Shown here: positions 396 through 40,257 of the stretch, one piece after another
Layout: each line of letters starts with the position of its first letter
Numbering within the stretch: the first letter of the stretch is position 1
Assembly (NCBI GenBank): GCA_947456185.1
Contig: CANGPW010000017.1
Coordinates: 1 to 40,941 of the forward strand
DNA: 40,941 nt
DNA from: Bacteroidota bacterium
GTDB taxonomy: Bacteria > Bacteroidota > Bacteroidia > UKL13-3
Direction of reading: 5' to 3'
The notes under the pieces: model-generated
Databases searched by the model: none
The model's input: the letters and a program-made list of their open reading frames with translations, nothing else
Told to the model about the DNA's origin: nothing
Made by a program: the position numbers and the translations under genes

Positions 396-3300
396 TTACT
401 TCATCAACATCATTTTACTTGATCGAACAAATTCTTTATTTGGATTATAAATATCTGTCAAAACTATTTTATAAAAATACAAGCCTGTTGAAAATTTCTC
501 AGCATCCCAAATAACTTCATGGATTTTTGCTGGCATCTTATTATCTAACAATATTTGAACTAATTGACCAAAAGAATTATAAATTTCTATTTTTACATTC
601 AATTCATTTTGTAATTCAAATTTAATCGTTGTGCTAGAGCTAAATGGATTTGGATGATTTTGATAAATTGAATGTCCATCATTGATTATATTATTATTGA
701 TTGAAGTACCACTTTTTGTTAAAAATGACCAAACAGGCGAAAACGGACCACTTCCCGCATTATTAATTGCATTAACTTTCCAATAATAATTTGTGTAAGC
801 ATTTAAACCATTCACGTTATAACTGCTATCATTGGTGATGGTATCTTTTATTAATGAAGAAAAAGTACTTACATCTGATAACTTAAAATTGTAGTTCGTT
901 GCAGTTGGAACACCATCCCATTTAAACATAAAATTTACAGGTAAACTTGTTGCGCTATTTAAAGGATAAATTAAATTAGGTGATAAAATTGGTGCAGCAT
1001 TAAAAGTGAATATTCCAAATGAACTTGCTGTGCCACCTGAAGTGCTTACTGTAATTACTCCTGTAGTTCCACTTCCAACTACCGCTGTAATATTTGAATC
1101 GCTTAAAACGGTAAATGACGTAGCATTGGTTCCTCCAAATTTAACACTCGTTGCTCCTGTAAGATTTTTTCCTGTAATATTTACAGTTGCTCCAGAAGAA
1201 GCATTTGTGGGTGTAAATGAAGAAATACTTGGAAGCAGGTTCTGACCAACGTTTCTTAATAACGAAACTGTATTTGAGCTAACATTCACTATGGCCAAAT
1301 CCAATTTACCGTCTCCGTCCATATCTCCAATAGATACATTGCGTGGAGAAATTCCGGATGCAAAATCTACTTTTGTTGCAAAAGATATAGTTCCACTGTT
1401 AGAGATATTTTTTAATACTGAAACTGTATTTGAACCATTATTAGCTAAAACCAAATCTAATTTTCCGTCTCCATCTAAGTCCCCAATAGATGTACCGTAT
1501 GGATTAGTTCCTGTTATAAAATCTACTTTTGTTTCAAAACTTCCGCTTGTTATAGTATCTCTGTTAGAGATATTTCTTAAAACAGAAACTGTATTTGATT
1601 CATAATTTACTAAAGCCAAATCTAATTTACTGTCTCCATCTATGTCTCCAATAGATAAGCTGTATGGTTGATATCCTGTTCCTAAATCTACTTTTGTTGC
1701 AAAAGATATAGTTCCAAAGGAGGAAGTATTTCTCAAAACGGAAACTGTATTTGAACCATTATTAGCTATAGCCAAATCCAATCTTCCGTCTCCATCTAAA
1801 TCTCCAATAGATGAACTGATTGGACTAATTCCTGTTGCAAAAAATACTCCTGTTGCAAAAGATACAGATCCAATTTTGGAGATATTTCTAAAAATCCCAA
1901 CACCACCTAACACAAGAACTACAGACAAATCTAATTTTCCATCTCCATCTATATCTTTAATGGATAAATCATAAACACCAGCTACTGGACAATATACTTT
2001 TGTTGCAAAAGATATAGTTCCAATATTGGACGTATTTCTATATATAGAAACTCCTTCAGCTAAATAATTCGCTACAGCCAAATCTAATTTCCCGTCTCCA
2101 TCTATATCTGCAATTGATACACTAGTTGGATCATATCCTCCAGTTGCAAAATCTACTTTTGTTGCAAAACTACTACTTGTTATAGTTCCATTGGCGGAGG
2201 TATTTCTATATATCGAAATTGTATTTGAAGTAGTATTTAATACTACCAAATCTAATTTACCATCTCCATCTAAATCTCCGGTTGACAAATTGATTGGACC
2301 AGTCCCAACTGCAAAATCTACTTTTGATGCAAAACTAGTTGTGCCTATTGTTCCATTACTATATGTAACAATAAATGCTTGTGGAGACTCCGCAATTCCG
2401 TTTCCATTTACCAAAACTCTTATCGGATCATGTATTGCTCCAAGCGGAACTGTAACTGTAAGAGTATTTCTAGTAGCAGAGATTATAATCGCCTTTACTC
2501 CTCCAAACCAAACGGTGTTATTTGCTGCTATTGAACTAAATCCTGAACCGCTAATGGTAACGCTAGTACCTATGATTCCACTGGTTGGGGAAATTGATGT
2601 AATAGTTGGTGACAGACCCTGACTATTTCTCAAAATAGAAACTGTGTTTGAAGCGGCATTCGCTATGGCCAAATCTAATCTTCCGTCACCATCTACATCT
2701 CCAATTGATAAACTGATTGGACTAATTCCAGTTGTAAAATCTACTTTTGCTTCAAAAGATATAGTTCCATTGAAAGAGCTATTTTTATAAATCGAAACTG
2801 TAGTATTGGCACTATTCGCTACAGCCAAATCTAATTTTCCATCTCCATCTAAATCTCCAAAGGATAAATCGCTTGGTTGAGTTCCAGTTGCAAAATCTAA
2901 TTTTGATGCAAAACTACCACTTGTTATTGTTCCATTGGTGGAGGTGTTTCTTAATAATGAAATTGTATTTGAATTCTTATTCGCTGTGGCCAAATCCAAT
3001 TTTCCATCTCCATCTATGTCACCCAATGACATACTGCGTGGTTCTGTTCCAGTTGCAAAATCTACTTTTGTTGCAAAACTTCCGCTTGATATAGTTCCAC
3101 TTATTGAGGTATTTCTATATACTGAAACAGTATTTGAATTACTATTTGCTAAAGCCAAATCCAATTTTCCGTCTCCATCTATATCACCTAAAGAGGCAGC
3201 GATTGGCCCATATTCAGCTACAAAATCTACTCTTGTTGCAAAAGATATATTTCCAATGGTGGAGGTATTTTTCAATACCGAAACTTTAAATTGTAAATTA

Positions 3301-5699
3301 TTGGGTATAGCCAAATCTAATTTTCCATCTCCATCTATGTCTCCTATAGAGATAGAAATGAAAGGCTCAAGTGAAAAACCAGGTATAAAATCAACTTTTG
3401 ATGCAAAATTTATAGTTCCACTGGTAGAAGTATTTCTATAAACCGAAAACGTATATGAATTAGAATTCACTACGACAATATCTAATTTCCCGTCTCCATC
3501 TATATCTCCCAATGACATACTACTTGGTGAAGTTCCAGAACCGGTTGTAAAATCTACTTTTGGTGCAAAACTTCCCCCTGATATTGTTCCAGTGATGGAG
3601 GTATTTCTATATACTGAAACACTACTGGAACTATTATTAGCTACAACCAAATCTAATTTCCCATCTCCATCTATATCTCCAATAGATACATTGCGTGGAG
3701 AAGTTCCAGTTATAAAATCCACTTTTGTTGCAAAAGTGGATGTGTCAATAAATCCACCATTATAAGTAACAATAAATGCTTTTGTCGACTCTGCTATTTT
3801 ACCATTTACCAAAACTCTTATTGGTTTGTGTGTAGCTCCAACAGGCACAGTAACTGTAAGAGTAGTAATAGTAGCATTGGTTACAATGGCTCTTACACCA
3901 CCAAACCAAACTATATTATTTGCAAGGGTTGTTGTATCAAAGTTTATTCCTGTAATTATTACGCTTGATCCAATTGCACCGCTTGTGGGCGACAGATTTA
4001 TGGTTAAATGAGTATAGGTAAATATTCCAGTTGAAATTGCTGTACCAGCAGGATTTGTTACTGAAATTGTTCCAGTTGTTCCATTTCCAAAGGTTGCATC
4101 AATACTCGTTGAACTCACAACTGTAAACGATATTGCATCAGTTCCACCGAATTTAACATTTGTTGTGCCTCCAAAATTTGTCCCTGTAATATTTACAATT
4201 GAGCCTGTTTTACCGCTTGTGGGGGTAAAGGATGTAATAGTTGGTGGCAGACTCTGACCAACGTTTTTTAGCACGGAGACAGTATTTGAAGTAGAATTCA
4301 ATAAGGTCAAATCTAGTTTTCCATCTCCATCTATATCTGCAAGGGATATACTTTTTGGATTAGTCCCAGTTACAAAATCTACTTTTGGTGCAAAACTTCC
4401 CCATGATATAGTTCCAATGGTGGATGTATTTCTGTATACCGAAATTGTATTTGATCCAACATTAGTAACTGCTATATCTAATTTTCCGTCTCCATCTAAA
4501 TCTCCAATAGATACGCTATTTGGCTGATTTTCAGTTGCGAAATTTATATTTGATGCAAAACTCCCAGTTGTTATTGTTCCACTTGTGGAAGTATTCCTCA
4601 ATACCGAAATTGTATTTGAAGTTGCATTTACTAAAGTCAAATCTAATTTTCCATCTCCATCTATATCTCCTATTGTCACATTACTTAAACCATTTCCTGT
4701 TGCAACAGTTACTCTAGCTGCAAAACTACCGCTTGTTATAGTTCCGCTGGTGGATGTATTTCTCAACACCGAAACTGTATTTGAAAAATTCGCTACTGTC
4801 AAATCTAATTTACCATCTCCATCTATGTCCCCTAGAGAGACAGTTAAAGGACCAGTTCCAGTTCCAATTGCAAAATCTACTTTTGTTGCAAAAGTTGAAG
4901 TTCCAATTGTGGAGGTATTGCGCAATACAGAAATAGTATTTGAAGTAGTATTCGCTATTGCCAAATCTAATTTACCATCTCCATCCAGATCTCCAATAGA
5001 TACACTGCGTGGCTGACTTCCAGTTGGTCGATCTACTTTTGATGAAAAGGATATAGTTCCGATAGTGGAGGTATTTCTCAATACAGAAACTGTATTTGAA
5101 GTAGAATTCGCTGAGGCCAGATCTAATTTTCCGTCTCCATCTATATCTCCAATAGTCACACTGTATGGATTAGTCCCGGTTGCAAAATCTATTTTTGTCG
5201 CAAAACTTCCACTTGATATAGTTCCACTTGTGGAGGTATTTCTATATACTGAAACGGAATTTGAATCATAATTCGCTACTACCAAATCTAATTTCCCATC
5301 TCCATCTATATCTCCAATAGATACACTGTATGGATTAGTCATAGTTGCAAAATCTACTTTTGTTTCCATACTGATTGTGTTAATAGATCCAAAACTATAG
5401 GTAACAACAAATGCTTTTGTAGACTCTGCTATTCCGCTTCCATTTACCAAAACTCTTATTGGAGCGTGCATTGCACCAATTGGAACTGTAACCTTAAGTG
5501 AAGTTGTAGAAGCAGAATCAATTATTGCCTTTACTCCTCCAAACCATACGGTGTTGTTTGCAGCAGTTGCACTAAATCCTGTACCGCTAATGGTAACGCT
5601 TGTTCCTATAGGTCCGCTTGTAGGTGTTAGGTTTGTAATGGTTACAGCAAAAACCTGTGTTATTGCTAAACTGAATAATATTGTAATTAGTTTTTTCAT
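396..5699 (-). CDS. Giant T9SS-secreted protein with three FG-GAP/VCBS beta-propellers and five IPT/TIG domains
   Basis: The chosen start at 5699 (MKKLITILFSLAITQVFA) gives a clean signal peptide and 1767 residues; an in-frame ATG at 5738 would put 13 charged residues before it. Reading along the protein: IPT/TIG domain (DNA about 5645-5395); seven FG-GAP/VCBS repeats (about 5370-4255); two IPT domains (about 4250-3765); seven repeats (about 3750-2630); one IPT (about 2620-2365); seven repeats (about 2350-1255); one IPT (about 1250-1010); a fibronectin III-like domain (about 1000-705); and a T9SS type A sorting domain beginning YQNHPNPFSSSTTIKFEL. Each of the 21 repeats carries a Ca2+-loop motif like GDIDGDGKLDL. 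This suggests an exported, probably surface-anchored or released, calcium-binding adhesin-like protein. No catalytic domain is visible and the ligand is unknown. It appears to be a single-gene unit. Confidence 0.9.
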   Translation of the reverse strand: MKKLITILFSLAITQVFAVTITNLTPTSGPIGTSVTISGTGFSATAANNTVWFGGVKAIIDSASTTSLKVTVPIGAMHAPIRVLVNGSGIAESTKAFVVTYSFGSINTISMETKVDFATMTNPYSVSIGDIDGDGKLDLVVANYDSNSVSVYRNTSTSGTISSGSFATKIDFATGTNPYSVTIGDIDGDGKLDLASANSTSNTVSVLRNTSTIGTISFSSKVDRPTGSQPRSVSIGDLDGDGKLDLAIANTTSNTISVLRNTSTIGTSTFATKVDFAIGTGTGPLTVSLGDIDGDGKLDLTVANFSNTVSVLRNTSTSGTITSGSFAARVTVATGNGLSNVTIGDIDGDGKLDLTLVNATSNTISVLRNTSTSGTITTGSFASNINFATENQPNSVSIGDLDGDGKLDIAVTNVGSNTISVYRNTSTIGTISWGSFAPKVDFVTGTNPKSISLADIDGDGKLDLTLLNSTSNTVSVLKNVGQSLPPTITSFTPTSGKTGSIVNITGTNFGGTTNVKFGGTDAISFTVVSSTSIDATFGNGTTGTISVTNPAGTAISTGIFTYTHLTINLSPTSGAIGSSVIITGINFDTTTLANNIVWFGGVRAIVTNATITTLTVTVPVGATHKPIRVLVNGKIAESTKAFIVTYNGGFIDTSTFATKVDFITGTSPRNVSIGDIDGDGKLDLVVANNSSSSVSVYRNTSITGTISGGSFAPKVDFTTGSGTSPSSMSLGDIDGDGKLDIVVVNSNSYTFSVYRNTSTSGTINFASKVDFIPGFSLEPFISISIGDIDGDGKLDLAIPNNLQFKVSVLKNTSTIGNISFATRVDFVAEYGPIAASLGDIDGDGKLDLALANSNSNTVSVYRNTSISGTISSGSFATKVDFATGTEPRSMSLGDIDGDGKLDLATANKNSNTISLLRNTSTNGTITSGSFASKLDFATGTQPSDLSFGDLDGDGKLDLAVANSANTTVSIYKNSSFNGTISFEAKVDFTTGISPISLSIGDVDGDGRLDLAIANAASNTVSILRNSQGLSPTITSISPTSGIIGTSVTISGSGFSSIAANNTVWFGGVKAIIISATRNTLTVTVPLGAIHDPIRVLVNGNGIAESPQAFIVTYSNGTIGTTSFASKVDFAVGTGPINLSTGDLDGDGKLDLVVLNTTSNTISIYRNTSANGTITSSSFATKVDFATGGYDPTSVSIADIDGDGKLDLAVANYLAEGVSIYRNTSNIGTISFATKVYCPVAGVYDLSIKDIDGDGKLDLSVVLVLGGVGIFRNISKIGSVSFATGVFFATGISPISSSIGDLDGDGRLDLAIANNGSNTVSVLRNTSSFGTISFATKVDLGTGYQPYSLSIGDIDGDSKLDLALVNYESNTVSVLRNISNRDTITSGSFETKVDFITGTNPYGTSIGDLDGDGKLDLVLANNGSNTVSVLKNISNSGTISFATKVDFASGISPRNVSIGDMDGDGKLDLAIVNVSSNTVSLLRNVGQNLLPSISSFTPTNASSGATVNITGKNLTGATSVKFGGTNATSFTVLSDSNITAVVGSGTTGVITVSTSGGTASSFGIFTFNAAPILSPNLIYPLNSATSLPVNFMFKWDGVPTATNYNFKLSDVSTFSSLIKDTITNDSSYNVNGLNAYTNYYWKVNAINNAGSGPFSPVWSFLTKSGTSINNNIINDGHSIYQNHPNPFSSSTTIKFELQNELNVKIEIYNSFGQLVQILLDNKMPAKIHEVIWDAEKFSTGLYFYKIVLTDIYNPNKEFVRSSKMMLMK
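1260..5380 (-). repeat. Coding tandem repeats: 21 FG-GAP units in three blocks of seven
   Basis: Each unit is about 150-165 bp and encodes a motif close to GDIDGDGKLDLxxAN, then NTVSVxRNTS and a linker of the form FATKVDFATGT. Units come in two linker lengths: a longer one ending TSGSFA and a shorter one ending GTISFA. The three blocks are separated by non-repeat IPT domains at about 4250-3765 and 2620-2365. Similarity between units is high at the DNA level, which favours unequal recombination. Confidence 0.85.
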
Positions 5700-5848
5700 A
5701 TTTTTATTTTTAAAAAATAGTACTTTTTGTTTTTTCAATAATAAATAATGTTAAACTTTAAAAAAAATATTTTGTAATCTCGAGACATTTTTAACTAAAT
5801 TAATTGCGTTTTATTTACTTTATTTGCGGCAGCAAAACACAAAATAAT

Positions 5849-37150: not shown

Positions 37151-37307
37151 ATGAATATTGAATCTGATTTTTCATATAATTTTTACCAACTTTTACTGTT
37201 TTTATCATTCAATATATTAATATTTAAATGCGCTAAAATGTTTTAGACCATACAAATTTAATAAAATGTTAGTTACTCAAAGGAATAGAAAAACTCGAAA
37301 AACATTT

Positions 37308-37315
37308 TATATTTG
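37308..37315 (+). promoter_or_regulatory. -7 box close to the accC start
   Basis: TATATTTG matches TAnnTTTG exactly and ends 13 bases before the ATG at 37329, so the leader would be only about 8 bases. The position supports that ATG over the in-frame one at 37266. No TTG lies at the expected upstream spacing. Confidence 0.45.
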
Positions 37316-37328
37316 CCCACCTAATTTT

Positions 37329-38807
37329 ATGAAAAAAATACTAATTGCAAACAGAGGAGAAATAGCTTTACGCGTGATGCGAACAGCTAAGGAAATGGGA
37401 ATTAAAACAGTTGCCGTTTTTAGTGAAGCCGATAGAAAAGCTTTACATGTTCGTTATGCCGATGAAGCTGTTTGTATTGGCCCACCGCCAAGTAATCAAA
37501 GTTATTTGCTAGGTGATAAAATTATTGAAGTTGCATTGCAATTAGGTGTGGATGGCATTCATCCTGGTTATGGTTTTTTAAGCGAAAACGCTCATTTTGC
37601 TCGCAAAGTAAAAGAAGCAGGCATCACATTCATTGGCCCAAGTGCGGAGAGTATGGAGCTAATGGGTGGAAAAATTTCTGCTAAAAATGCGGTAGCAAAG
37701 TTCAATGTTCCTATGGTTCCCGGAACCAAAGATGCTTTAACAGATGTAAATGTGGCTAAAAAAATAGCTGCAGAAATTGGCTATCCAATTTTAATTAAAG
37801 CAAGTGCGGGTGGTGGCGGAAAAGGAATGAGAGTGGTAGAAGTTGAAAGTGAATTTGAAGAACAAATTAAACTAGCACAGTCGGAAGCAAAAAGTGCCTT
37901 TGGCGATGATGCAGTTTTTATAGAAAAATATGTGGGTTCACCTCGTCATATTGAATTTCAAATTCTTGGCGATACGCATGGAAATATCGTTCATTTATTT
38001 GAACGCGAATGTAGTATTCAACGCAGACATCAAAAACTAGTAGAAGAAGCACCAAGCAGCTGTTTAACGGAAGAGGTAAGACAAAAAATGGGCGAAGCAG
38101 CTGTAAATGTGGCCAAAGCATGTAACTATGTTGGAGCGGGAACGGTAGAGTTTTTAGTAGACGACAAATTGAATTTTTATTTCTTAGAAATGAATACTCG
38201 TTTGCAAGTAGAACATCCGGTAACGGAACAAATAGTAAACTTAGATTTAGTAAAAGAGCAAATCAGAATTGCCAGAGGCGAAACATTAGGATATGCGCAA
38301 AGTGATTTGAAAATTAACGGACATGCCATAGAATTACGTGTTTGTGCCGAAGACCCTGCCAATAATTTTTTACCAGATATTGGAAAATTAATAACCTATA
38401 AAACTCCCCAAGGTTATGGCGTGCGTGTGGATGATAGTTTTGAAGCAGGAATGGAAATTCCAATTCAATACGACCCCATGATTGCAAAGCTAATCACTTT
38501 TGGAAAAGACCGTGAAGAAGCTATAAAACGGATGATTCGTGCCATTGACGATTACAAATTAACAGGCATAGAAACTACTTTGCCATTTGGCAAATTTGTT
38601 ATGAAACACGAAGCATTCATCAGTGGGAATTTTGATACCAAGTTCATTGAAAAACATTTCAATCCAGAAAACTTAAAGGAAACGAATAATTACAATGAAG
38701 CATATGCATTTGCTGCTGGTGAATTGTTTTTTGCAAATGAAGCAAATTCAAAGCAACAAACTGTAGTAGAAAAAAATAGCAATTGGCTCCAAAACAGAAA
38801 AGCATAA
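37329..38807 (+). CDS. accC: Biotin carboxylase subunit of an acyl-CoA carboxylase
   Basis: The ATG at 37329 starts MKKILIANRGEIALRVM, the universal biotin carboxylase opening, giving 492 residues; the earlier ATG would add 21 alien residues and lies upstream of the promoter box. Motifs: AVFSEADRKALHVRYADEAV, HPGYGFLSENA, the ATP-grasp loop KASAGGGGKGMRVV, HIEFQILGDTHGNIVHLFER, ECSIQRRHQKLVEEAPS and EMNTRLQVEHPVTE. It carboxylates biotin on a carrier protein using bicarbonate and ATP. A C-terminal tail of about 40 residues beyond the core suggests the propionyl/acyl-CoA carboxylase type. No accB or carboxyltransferase gene is adjacent. Confidence 0.94.
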   Translation: MKKILIANRGEIALRVMRTAKEMGIKTVAVFSEADRKALHVRYADEAVCIGPPPSNQSYLLGDKIIEVALQLGVDGIHPGYGFLSENAHFARKVKEAGITFIGPSAESMELMGGKISAKNAVAKFNVPMVPGTKDALTDVNVAKKIAAEIGYPILIKASAGGGGKGMRVVEVESEFEEQIKLAQSEAKSAFGDDAVFIEKYVGSPRHIEFQILGDTHGNIVHLFERECSIQRRHQKLVEEAPSSCLTEEVRQKMGEAAVNVAKACNYVGAGTVEFLVDDKLNFYFLEMNTRLQVEHPVTEQIVNLDLVKEQIRIARGETLGYAQSDLKINGHAIELRVCAEDPANNFLPDIGKLITYKTPQGYGVRVDDSFEAGMEIPIQYDPMIAKLITFGKDREEAIKRMIRAIDDYKLTGIETTLPFGKFVMKHEAFISGNFDTKFIEKHFNPENLKETNNYNEAYAFAAGELFFANEANSKQQTVVEKNSNWLQNRKA

Positions 38808-38880: not shown

Positions 38881-39069
38881 GTGGAAAAAATAATTAACCA
38901 AACCAATACTAAACCGCTTGAATGCCCTGTTCCTCATGGCAAAAGATGGAAGTGGCTTGGTTATATAAAAAAACTAGGCTTTTGGGGCTTTATGTTTTTC
39001 TTGATTAAAGGAATTACCGTTTGGATCATTTTACCTTATTTGGCTGCCAAAGGAATTTTTAATTGGTAG
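38881..39069 (+). CDS. Small predicted membrane protein (62 residues)
   Basis: I do not recognise this gene. A GTG start at 38881 gives 62 residues: a polar lead with CPVPHGKRWKWLGYIKKLGF, rich in basic and aromatic residues, then one transmembrane helix (FWGFMFFLIKGITVWIILPY) and a short end. The composition is protein-like and the frame is open from GTG to TAG. TAAAATTG (38869-38876), one base off the -7 consensus, lies directly before it, so the message could be nearly leaderless. It could equally be co-transcribed with accC, 73 bases upstream. Function unknown. Confidence 0.6.
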   Translation: MEKIINQTNTKPLECPVPHGKRWKWLGYIKKLGFWGFMFFLIKGITVWIILPYLAAKGIFNW

Positions 39070-39158: not shown

Positions 39159-39166
39159 TATATTTG
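39159..39166 (+). promoter_or_regulatory. -7 promoter box of the structured RNA
   Basis: TATATTTG is an exact TAnnTTTG match, ending 5 bases before the first base of the RNA's closing stem at 39172. This is the distance expected for a transcription start at or near the stem. No TTG at 17-23 bases upstream was found. Confidence 0.5.
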
Positions 39167-39171
39167 CCATT

Positions 39172-39363
39172 GAAAGGTCGGTGTAATATTTGAAAAAAAT
39201 TAATACCATTTAATAAACAGCTGAACCGCTTTGTCAAAATCAGGCTTTTTTACCCTCGGGGATTTTTGGTAACTTGTTACTGAAAACGTTAGAAGGTTGC
39301 GACTCCTGTGGAGGCTAAATCCTATTCATTTACGGATTTTATTCAAAAGCCGACCTTTCTTTT
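39172..39363 (+). ncRNA. ssrS: Structured small RNA, 6S RNA (SsrS)-like architecture
   Basis: No ORF covers this stretch. GAAAGGTCGG (39172-39181) pairs perfectly with CCGACCTTTC (39350-39359), which is followed by TTTT. Inside this, TTTGAAAAAAAT (39189-39200) pairs with ATTTTATTCAAA (39336-39347) with one A-A mismatch. The far end is a 10-bp hairpin, TTTTTGGTAA (39263-39272) with TTACTGAAAA (39277-39286), around a CTTG loop. Between lie long weakly paired strands. A closing stem, a large central bubble and an apical stem in about 190 nt is the plan of 6S RNA, which sequesters RNA polymerase. The identity is inferred from architecture only; the existence of a structured RNA is better supported. 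Confidence 0.6.
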
Positions 39364-39411
39364 AAATTATTTTACTCAATCATTTTACTCAAATATTTAT
39401 CTATTTAAACC

Positions 39412-40257
39412 ATGCTAAATCTGAAAAATTTTCTATTCTTTTTCATTCTTTTTATTATTGGAATAAATTCAATTTTTGCTCAACAAATAAAAGTAATTAC
39501 CTATAATATTAGGTTAGATGTGGCGATAGATGGAGCAAATCAATGGGGCAAAAGAACCAATGCAGTTGACTCATTATTGAAAAAACATTCGCCCGATGTA
39601 CTTTGCATTCAAGAAGGTTTATATAACCAAATATTGGATTTACAAACCATGTTAACCAACTATTTTTATGTGGGCGTTGGACGAGATGACGGAAAGGAAA
39701 AAGGAGAATTTTCGGCTATTTTTTTCAAAAAAAGCATGTTTAAATTAGTAACCTCTAACACTTTTTGGTTATCGCCAACTCCCGAAATAGCAGGAAGTAA
39801 AGGTTGGGATGCGGCCATTACCAGAATTTGTAGTTATGGAAAAGTGAAGCTAAAAAAAACTAACAAATCGTTGTTTGTTTTCAATACTCATTTTGATCAT
39901 ATTGGGGAAACAGCTAGACAAGAAAGTGCGAAGCTTATTTTAAATAAAATAACTGAAATAGCGGGCAATGATGCTGTAATTTTATCTGGTGATTTTAACT
40001 CAGAACCAAACTCAGTAGCTTATAGTAACATTACTAATTACAACAATCATCCATTCAAAGACAGTTATATAAAAAGTAAAAATAAGGATTGTACTTTTAC
40101 AGGATTTTAAGTAAAAAGTAATATATGTAAAAGGATAGATTTTATATTTTACGATAAAAATTTTAAGCTAAAAAACTACCAAATTATTAACGATAACAAT
40201 GGCGAATATTATCCTTCGGACCACTTAGCAGTGGAAGCAATTTTAGAAATAAAATAA
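39412..40257 (+). pseudogene. Endonuclease/exonuclease/phosphatase (EEP) family protein with in-frame stop
   Basis: The gene encodes a secreted EEP-fold hydrolase: signal peptide (FLFFFILFIIGINSIFAQQ), then IKVITYNIRLD, PDVLCIQEG with the metal-binding Glu, FNTHFDHIG, and ILSGDFNSEPNS. At 40108-40110 a TAA interrupts the frame after CTFTGF. The same frame continues for 48 codons with KRIDFIFYD and YPSDHLAVEAI, ending at TAA 40255-40257; this segment contains the family's final catalytic Asp-His motif. One base change (for example GAA to TAA) explains the break. The 232-residue product would lack the catalytic His, so it is probably inactive unless the stop is read through or is a sequencing error. 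Confidence 0.85.

Follow-up and report, generated by a model that had tools for sequence, protein, structure and literature searches.

A diverged 6S RNA gene with its own promoter box, very probably, outside the zapA-rny locus of a Bacteroidota genome

The plus-strand segment 39159 to 39363 of the window (the whole 40,941-nt stretch of DNA analyzed here) is very probably the gene for a diverged 6S RNA of the Bacteroidota (6S-Flavo) lineage, lying outside zapA-rny and read from its own sigma-A promoter. 6S RNA, with which bacteria put their RNA polymerase on hold, is encoded by a free-standing gene of about 160 to 200 nt with its own promoter and end. What is new here is the form, which is diverged, unannotated, and apparently mobile; the function itself would be that of an ordinary 6S RNA. 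A literature search by titles and opening lines found no report on the 6S RNA of this group or on 6S gene transfer (the survey of Wehner, 2014, was outside its scope).

The RNA gene proper extends from 39172 to 39363 on the plus strand, based on a covariance model match, on its conservation as a unit, on a predicted start at 39171/39172, and on an end in a T-tract. The sigma-A type −7 box, TATATTTG (TAnnTTTG; 39159 to 39166), is present exactly where the initial annotation had placed it, and the closing stem claimed there is complementary at 10 of 10 positions, with GAAAGGTCGG (39172 to 39181) as its 5' strand and CCGACCTTTC (39350 to 39359) as its 3' strand. Inside it, TTTGAAAAAAAT (39189 to 39200) pairs with 39336 to 39347 to form an inner closing stem; this proposed 12-nt stem is 92% complementary, with one mismatch, and it has a counterpart in homologues. 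A large 5' central bubble of 37 nt (39182 to 39218), which is unpaired in the RNAalifold consensus, would be the template strand for pRNA if its role is as in known 6S RNA. The interrupted arm that follows consists of short RNAalifold helices on its 5' side (39219 to 39241; helices 39219 to 39222, 39226 to 39229, 39233 to 39235, and 39238 to 39241) and on its 3' side (39295 to 39316; helices 39295 to 39298, 39301 to 39303, 39308 to 39311, and 39313 to 39316). The same consensus contains a small apical hairpin, CCC-TCG-GGG (39253 to 39261). A second apical hairpin with the loop CTTG (39263 to 39286) can be read at the place proposed for it, has 10 bp if G-U pairs are counted, and shows two-sided changes in its pairs. 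AAATCC (39317 to 39322) and GGATTT (39334 to 39339) also stand where they had been reported; they form a hairpin of the 3' bubble strand (39317 to 39339; 3 pairs in the consensus) that competes with the inner stem, with which it has the strand 39336 to 39347 in common. The T-tract after the closing stem likewise reads TTTT at 39360 to 39363, is conserved in 15 loci, and is likely to be an intrinsic terminator.

Evidence from the single sequence is weak. The folding z-score of the window RNA is −1.70, with 11 of 200 shuffles folding at least as well; its inner stem is not better than those of shuffled sequences (31 of 100 as good); and TAnnTTTG occurs 97 times on the two strands of the window, with 79 occurrences expected. 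These unimpressive statistics are the one point in favor of regarding the stems as chance inverted repeats in an A+T-rich spacer, an explanation that is refuted by conservation across genomes together with compensatory changes and to which we assign a negligible probability. The proof of a structured RNA is comparative, as read from aligned homologues.

At E ≤ 0.001, a blastn-type search through the 64 genomes of the window's family gave matches in 34, of which a part are weak. The query was 321 nt long, with the box at 60 to 67 and the T-tract at 261 to 264. Beyond near-identical relatives, matches start at query positions 43 to 76, and those that are full length end at 258 to 273. Among 15 loci, the TA (−13/−12) and TTTG (−9 to −6) of the box are 87 to 100% conserved, with flank conservation of 33 to 73% upstream of the box and 27 to 67% downstream of the T-tract. 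All 17 loci examined from L001 to L020 have the box at one offset. Of 28 loci, 22 have TAnnTTTG exactly, and a variant box is found in six loci of genus g13. The conserved unit is about 192 nt, bounded by the TAnnTTTG box and the T-tract, which is the free-standing gene expected of a 6S RNA. Because the sigma-A box of Flavobacterium psychrophilum is described at −12 to −5 (PMC9723704), we place the start near 39171/39172, where the closing stem begins. The 36 pattern-matched stretches are all from metagenome-assembled genomes, labelled Bacteroidetes, Bacteroidia, Bacteroidota, Chitinophaga pinensis, Sphingobacteriales, or Flavobacteriaceae.

The initial annotation had named covariation among relatives as a check on its structure, and compensatory substitutions are indeed present in the stems in both alignments analyzed. 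From 22 homologues aligned with MAFFT and not fitted to any structure, RNAalifold derives 40 pairs, of which 18 have two-sided changes, including 6 of the 10 pairs of the closing stem. In a model-fitted alignment of 25 sequences, which leans towards its own structure, two-sided changes are seen in 35 of 40 pairs; none of 500 shuffles scored as high, and sliding the pairing partners along this alignment destroyed the signal. Alignment A3 was made without near-duplicates (L002, L004, L007, L008, L011, and others) and without the partial sequences L027 to L029; L029, from genome G008, was kept in alignment A5 and in model R2 (see below). The consensus from the 22 homologues, with its 18 of 40 two-sided pairs, matches the layout described for 6S RNAs, namely a closing stem, a large 5' bulge with a hairpin opposite, and an interrupted apical stem (PMC8414754).

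A match to the Rfam 6S model RF00013, which had been suggested as a further check, was not found, even with permissive settings on the region. At gathering score, no 6S match was found in the whole window; five diverged relatives (L029 and L057 to L060) gave none either. The gathering scores are 85 bits for RF01685 (6S-Flavo) and 46.4 bits for RF00013, and the window RNA reaches neither. RF01685 matched nothing in the window up to an E of 10 and nothing in the window's genome. A clear Rfam match to another class, which would have spoken against a 6S RNA, was also absent, the only candidate being STnc220 (15.6 bits, E of 6, gathering score of 60).

We therefore rely on R1, a covariance model built from the window's family alone, without any known 6S RNA. 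In the window's genome its sole match is 39172 to 39364 (202.4 bits), a sequence that is itself part of R1. Among 198 class genomes, RF01685 has a match at E ≤ 0.01 in 14, and one of these matches exceeds its cut-off. When R1 was run on these 14 RF01685 loci, 7 of them, from other Bacteroidia families, were matched at the same place and over the full length: L069 (52.8 bits), L072 (49.2 bits), L064 (34.9 bits), L065 (25.8 bits), L063 (23.3 bits), L061 (19.5 bits), and L062 (16.4 bits). These on-site matches are the seven best, the best off-site match scoring 13.7 bits; the other 7 loci have no R1 match at the RF01685 position. A second model, R2, is of the R1 type with L064, L065, L069, and L072 added, and it matches 35 of the 198 class genomes at E ≤ 0.01 (the E-values come from a short calibration). 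Intermediates such as L057 to L060, L069, and L165 join the window-family and zapA-rny ends of the 6S range. One RF01685 match, L070 of genome G008 (34 bits), was considered as a second 6S RNA of the family and rejected, as it looks coding-like by eye and is one of the 7 loci without an R1 match at that position.

The R1 matches to RF01685 loci at the same place support the 6S interpretation put forward in the initial annotation and show that the RNA is homologous to 6S RNA, beyond mere likeness of shape. They also bear on the idea that a structured RNA of other descent, such as a piece of a mobile element, has come to look like 6S RNA by convergence. The gene's changing neighbors, its duplication in genomes G005 and G139, and a near-identical copy in another order would suit such an element; convergence would leave unexplained why R1 locates the zapA-rny 6S loci at the exact place, and no transposase-like frame was recognized by eye around the G139 and G005 copies. 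We regard convergence as highly improbable. We regard membership in 6S RNA as demonstrated at the level of sequence and structure, from which the function would follow by homology.

The position of the gene differs from that of its homologues. In six of the seven R1-matched loci (L061 to L065 and L072), the RNA occupies the spacer from a zapA-like frame to rny, which is 206 to 271 nt long, with Pfam ZapA and RNase_Y_N confirmed at L061 and L064; L069 is the one R1-matched RF01685 locus away from zapA-rny. In E. coli, too, zapA adjoins ssrS. In the window's family, the zapA-like frame and rny are 41 to 90 nt apart in all 30 loci measured, and 87 nt apart in the window's genome (L089). Since 6S loci have spacers of 206 to 271 nt at this site, the gene must have moved in the window's family. 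Across eight loci with a 6S RNA inside, the zapA-rny spacer is 206 to 281 nt, and it is 35 to 57 nt in family f38 (5 loci) and 33 to 94 nt in family f53 (3 loci). These short rny spacers (33 to 94 nt) indicate that the 6S gene lies off zapA-rny in more than one family. Families f38 and f53 also contain 6S-like RNAs immediately preceded by a TTTG-type box (L164, L165, L168, L171, L172, and L174).

Occurrence of the gene is patchy. R1 finds it in 33 of the 64 family genomes; the other 31 have no R1 match and none with R2 at E ≤ 0.01. Gaps, or the prefilter, which scores only part of the candidates, may hide further copies among these unmatched genomes, one of which (G051) has a blastn-type match that runs off the end of its contig. 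In 12 of the 31, R2 gave weak matches (E of 0.04 to 1), which were judged by eye to be chance and were set aside. Within genus g1 the RNA occurs in at least four settings, and five sisters (G036, G037, G038, G041, and G044) have no RNA within 800 nt after accC; in genus g2 it precedes gapA in five of the loci compared. G005 has two same-strand copies 12.7 kb apart (L020/L238; C56:18870 and C56:31572), the second of them upstream of gapA. L029 in G008 keeps the 3' half, is without the box and without the 5' side of the closing stem, and looks like a decaying gene. Clean empty sites, from which the ends of a moving unit could be fixed, were not found.

Such patchiness would be odd for a universal RNA and would count against a 6S assignment. 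Together with the relocation, it suggests a dispensable RNA, and activity does not follow from 6S homology alone; the RNA could thus be 6S derived with another role now, either binding core polymerase in the manner of Ms1 or acting as a lineage-specific sRNA, with 6S function lost. Because 6S RNAs are themselves described as nonessential (PMC11077062), patchiness is not decisive for this possibility. The RNA retains every structural element of 6S RNA, and its competing helices show covariation; we consider a changed role unlikely and an ordinary 6S RNA the preferred reading.

Two copies in G139, a genome of family f38 and thus of another order, point to exchange of the gene between lineages. 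They are L163 (L239) and L240:5669-5858, are 95% identical to each other and 86 to 90% identical to six 6S RNAs of genus g13 in the window's family (f1), and are only 49 to 56% identical to those of four genomes of their own family, with which the rny of G139 groups. One copy has a coaBC-like gene 2.7 kb away, whose identity is 63 to 65% to g13 and 64 to 65% to f38. Contamination from g13 is disfavored because this gene is only 63 to 65% identical to g13; its equal identity to the two groups does not place the G139 contig. Horizontal transfer would be the simplest reading of the G139 copies, and it remains a lead because it rests on small trees (of one protein and of one 190-nt RNA) and on a draft genome. 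We give about equal weight to belief and doubt in the wider proposal, for which G139 is the strongest case, namely that in this order 6S RNA is a small mobile regulatory gene that left zapA-rny, shifts between spacers among sister species, has been duplicated, lost, and left to decay, and has crossed orders, so that cells repeatedly swap or drop a global polymerase regulator.

The initial annotation had also suggested a switch, in which pairing of AAATCC with GGATTT competes with the inner stem, and this feature is conserved. The 3' strand around GGATTT can pair either with the 5' bubble strand, as the inner stem, or with the preceding AAATCC. Competing helices, counted where an inner stem (6 bp or more) and a hairpin (5 bp or more) have at least 4 nt of strand in common, occur in 35 of 36 homologues; mononucleotide shuffles gave a mean of 16.0 and a maximum of 23. 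Pairing partners change together between lineages: in 6S-Flavo loci GAGTTT goes with AAACTC and AAAACTTG, and in the window's family GGATTTT goes with AAAAATT and AAATCC. The inner stem of the window's genus is A/U rich and, by its energy, not better than in shuffles. An alternative pairing of the 3' bubble strand is thus present, and we infer that it switches.

By homology, the RNA would imitate an open promoter and hold the sigma-A polymerase holoenzyme. On the return of nucleotides, polymerase would use the 5' bubble strand as the template for a short pRNA, and this synthesis would take the 5' strand 39189 to 39200 away from the 3' strand 39336 to 39347. The freed 3' strand could then close the AAATCC/GGATTT hairpin, and polymerase would be let go. 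The competing helices fit the release described for known 6S RNAs, in which the RNA is rearranged by pRNA synthesis (PMC11077062 and PMC8414754).

Among known systems, the closest is 6S-Flavo RNA (RF01685; described by Weinberg et al. in 2010, PMC2864571), to which the window RNA is homologous by covariance model and with which it shares its layout and the blocks 5' bubble, AAATCC...GGRTTT, and CAGGC. The window copy differs in falling below any reported RF01685 match, in lying outside zapA-rny, and in its A/U-rich inner stem, where 6S-Flavo has AAACUC/GAGUUU. The 6S RNA with pRNAs described for B. thetaiotaomicron (PMC7366714) comes from the same phylum and has the activity expected of the window RNA, a likeness by description and not by sequence. 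The RF00013 RNAs (E. coli SsrS and B. subtilis 6S-1) resemble it in their closing stem, their bubble with a hairpin on the 3' strand, their apical stem, and their size of about 190 nt; they differ in having no sequence-level match to the window family (RF00013 in 0 of 30 relatives' genomes at E ≤ 1, the window's genome included). Ms1 RNA of Actinobacteria, described as binding core polymerase without a sigma factor (PMC11077062), is likewise structured, 6S related in shape, and tied to polymerase; it differs in phylum and in its binding of the core enzyme, and its comparison with the window RNA is by Rfam scan alone.

These results define a blind spot, since 6S RNAs of the window's family and of other families of Bacteroidia score too low to be caught by the Rfam models; for this reason, a missing 6S annotation is no evidence of absence. 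The models built here recover some of these sub-Rfam RNAs, and the diverged copies supply independent compensatory changes for the release switch. Mobility is apparently the part worth following. If the gene is truly patchy and mobile, there are close relatives in nature with zero, one, or two copies of a global regulator of transcription, and the worth of 6S RNA to a cell would be open to direct comparison.

In the window, the gene upstream of the RNA encodes a biotin carboxylase (37266 to 38807; Pfam Biotin_carb domains). Between the two is a 62-codon frame with a GTG start (38881 to 39066), which matched no Pfam family and whose product is probably a small membrane protein; the frame also follows accC in some sister genomes, e.g., G038 and G041. 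Downstream, at 39412 to 40110, is a gene of the endonuclease/exonuclease/phosphatase family (Pfam). In the region 39412 to 40255 this frame stops at 232 codons, relative L005 has 281 open codons, and relative L002 has two shorter frames where the gene would stand, so it may be decaying in some species. At the other end of the window, a minus-strand frame of 1780 codons (396 to 5738) has many DGDGKLDL-type motif repeats and a C-terminal sorting-like end, and its product is probably a secreted repeat protein.
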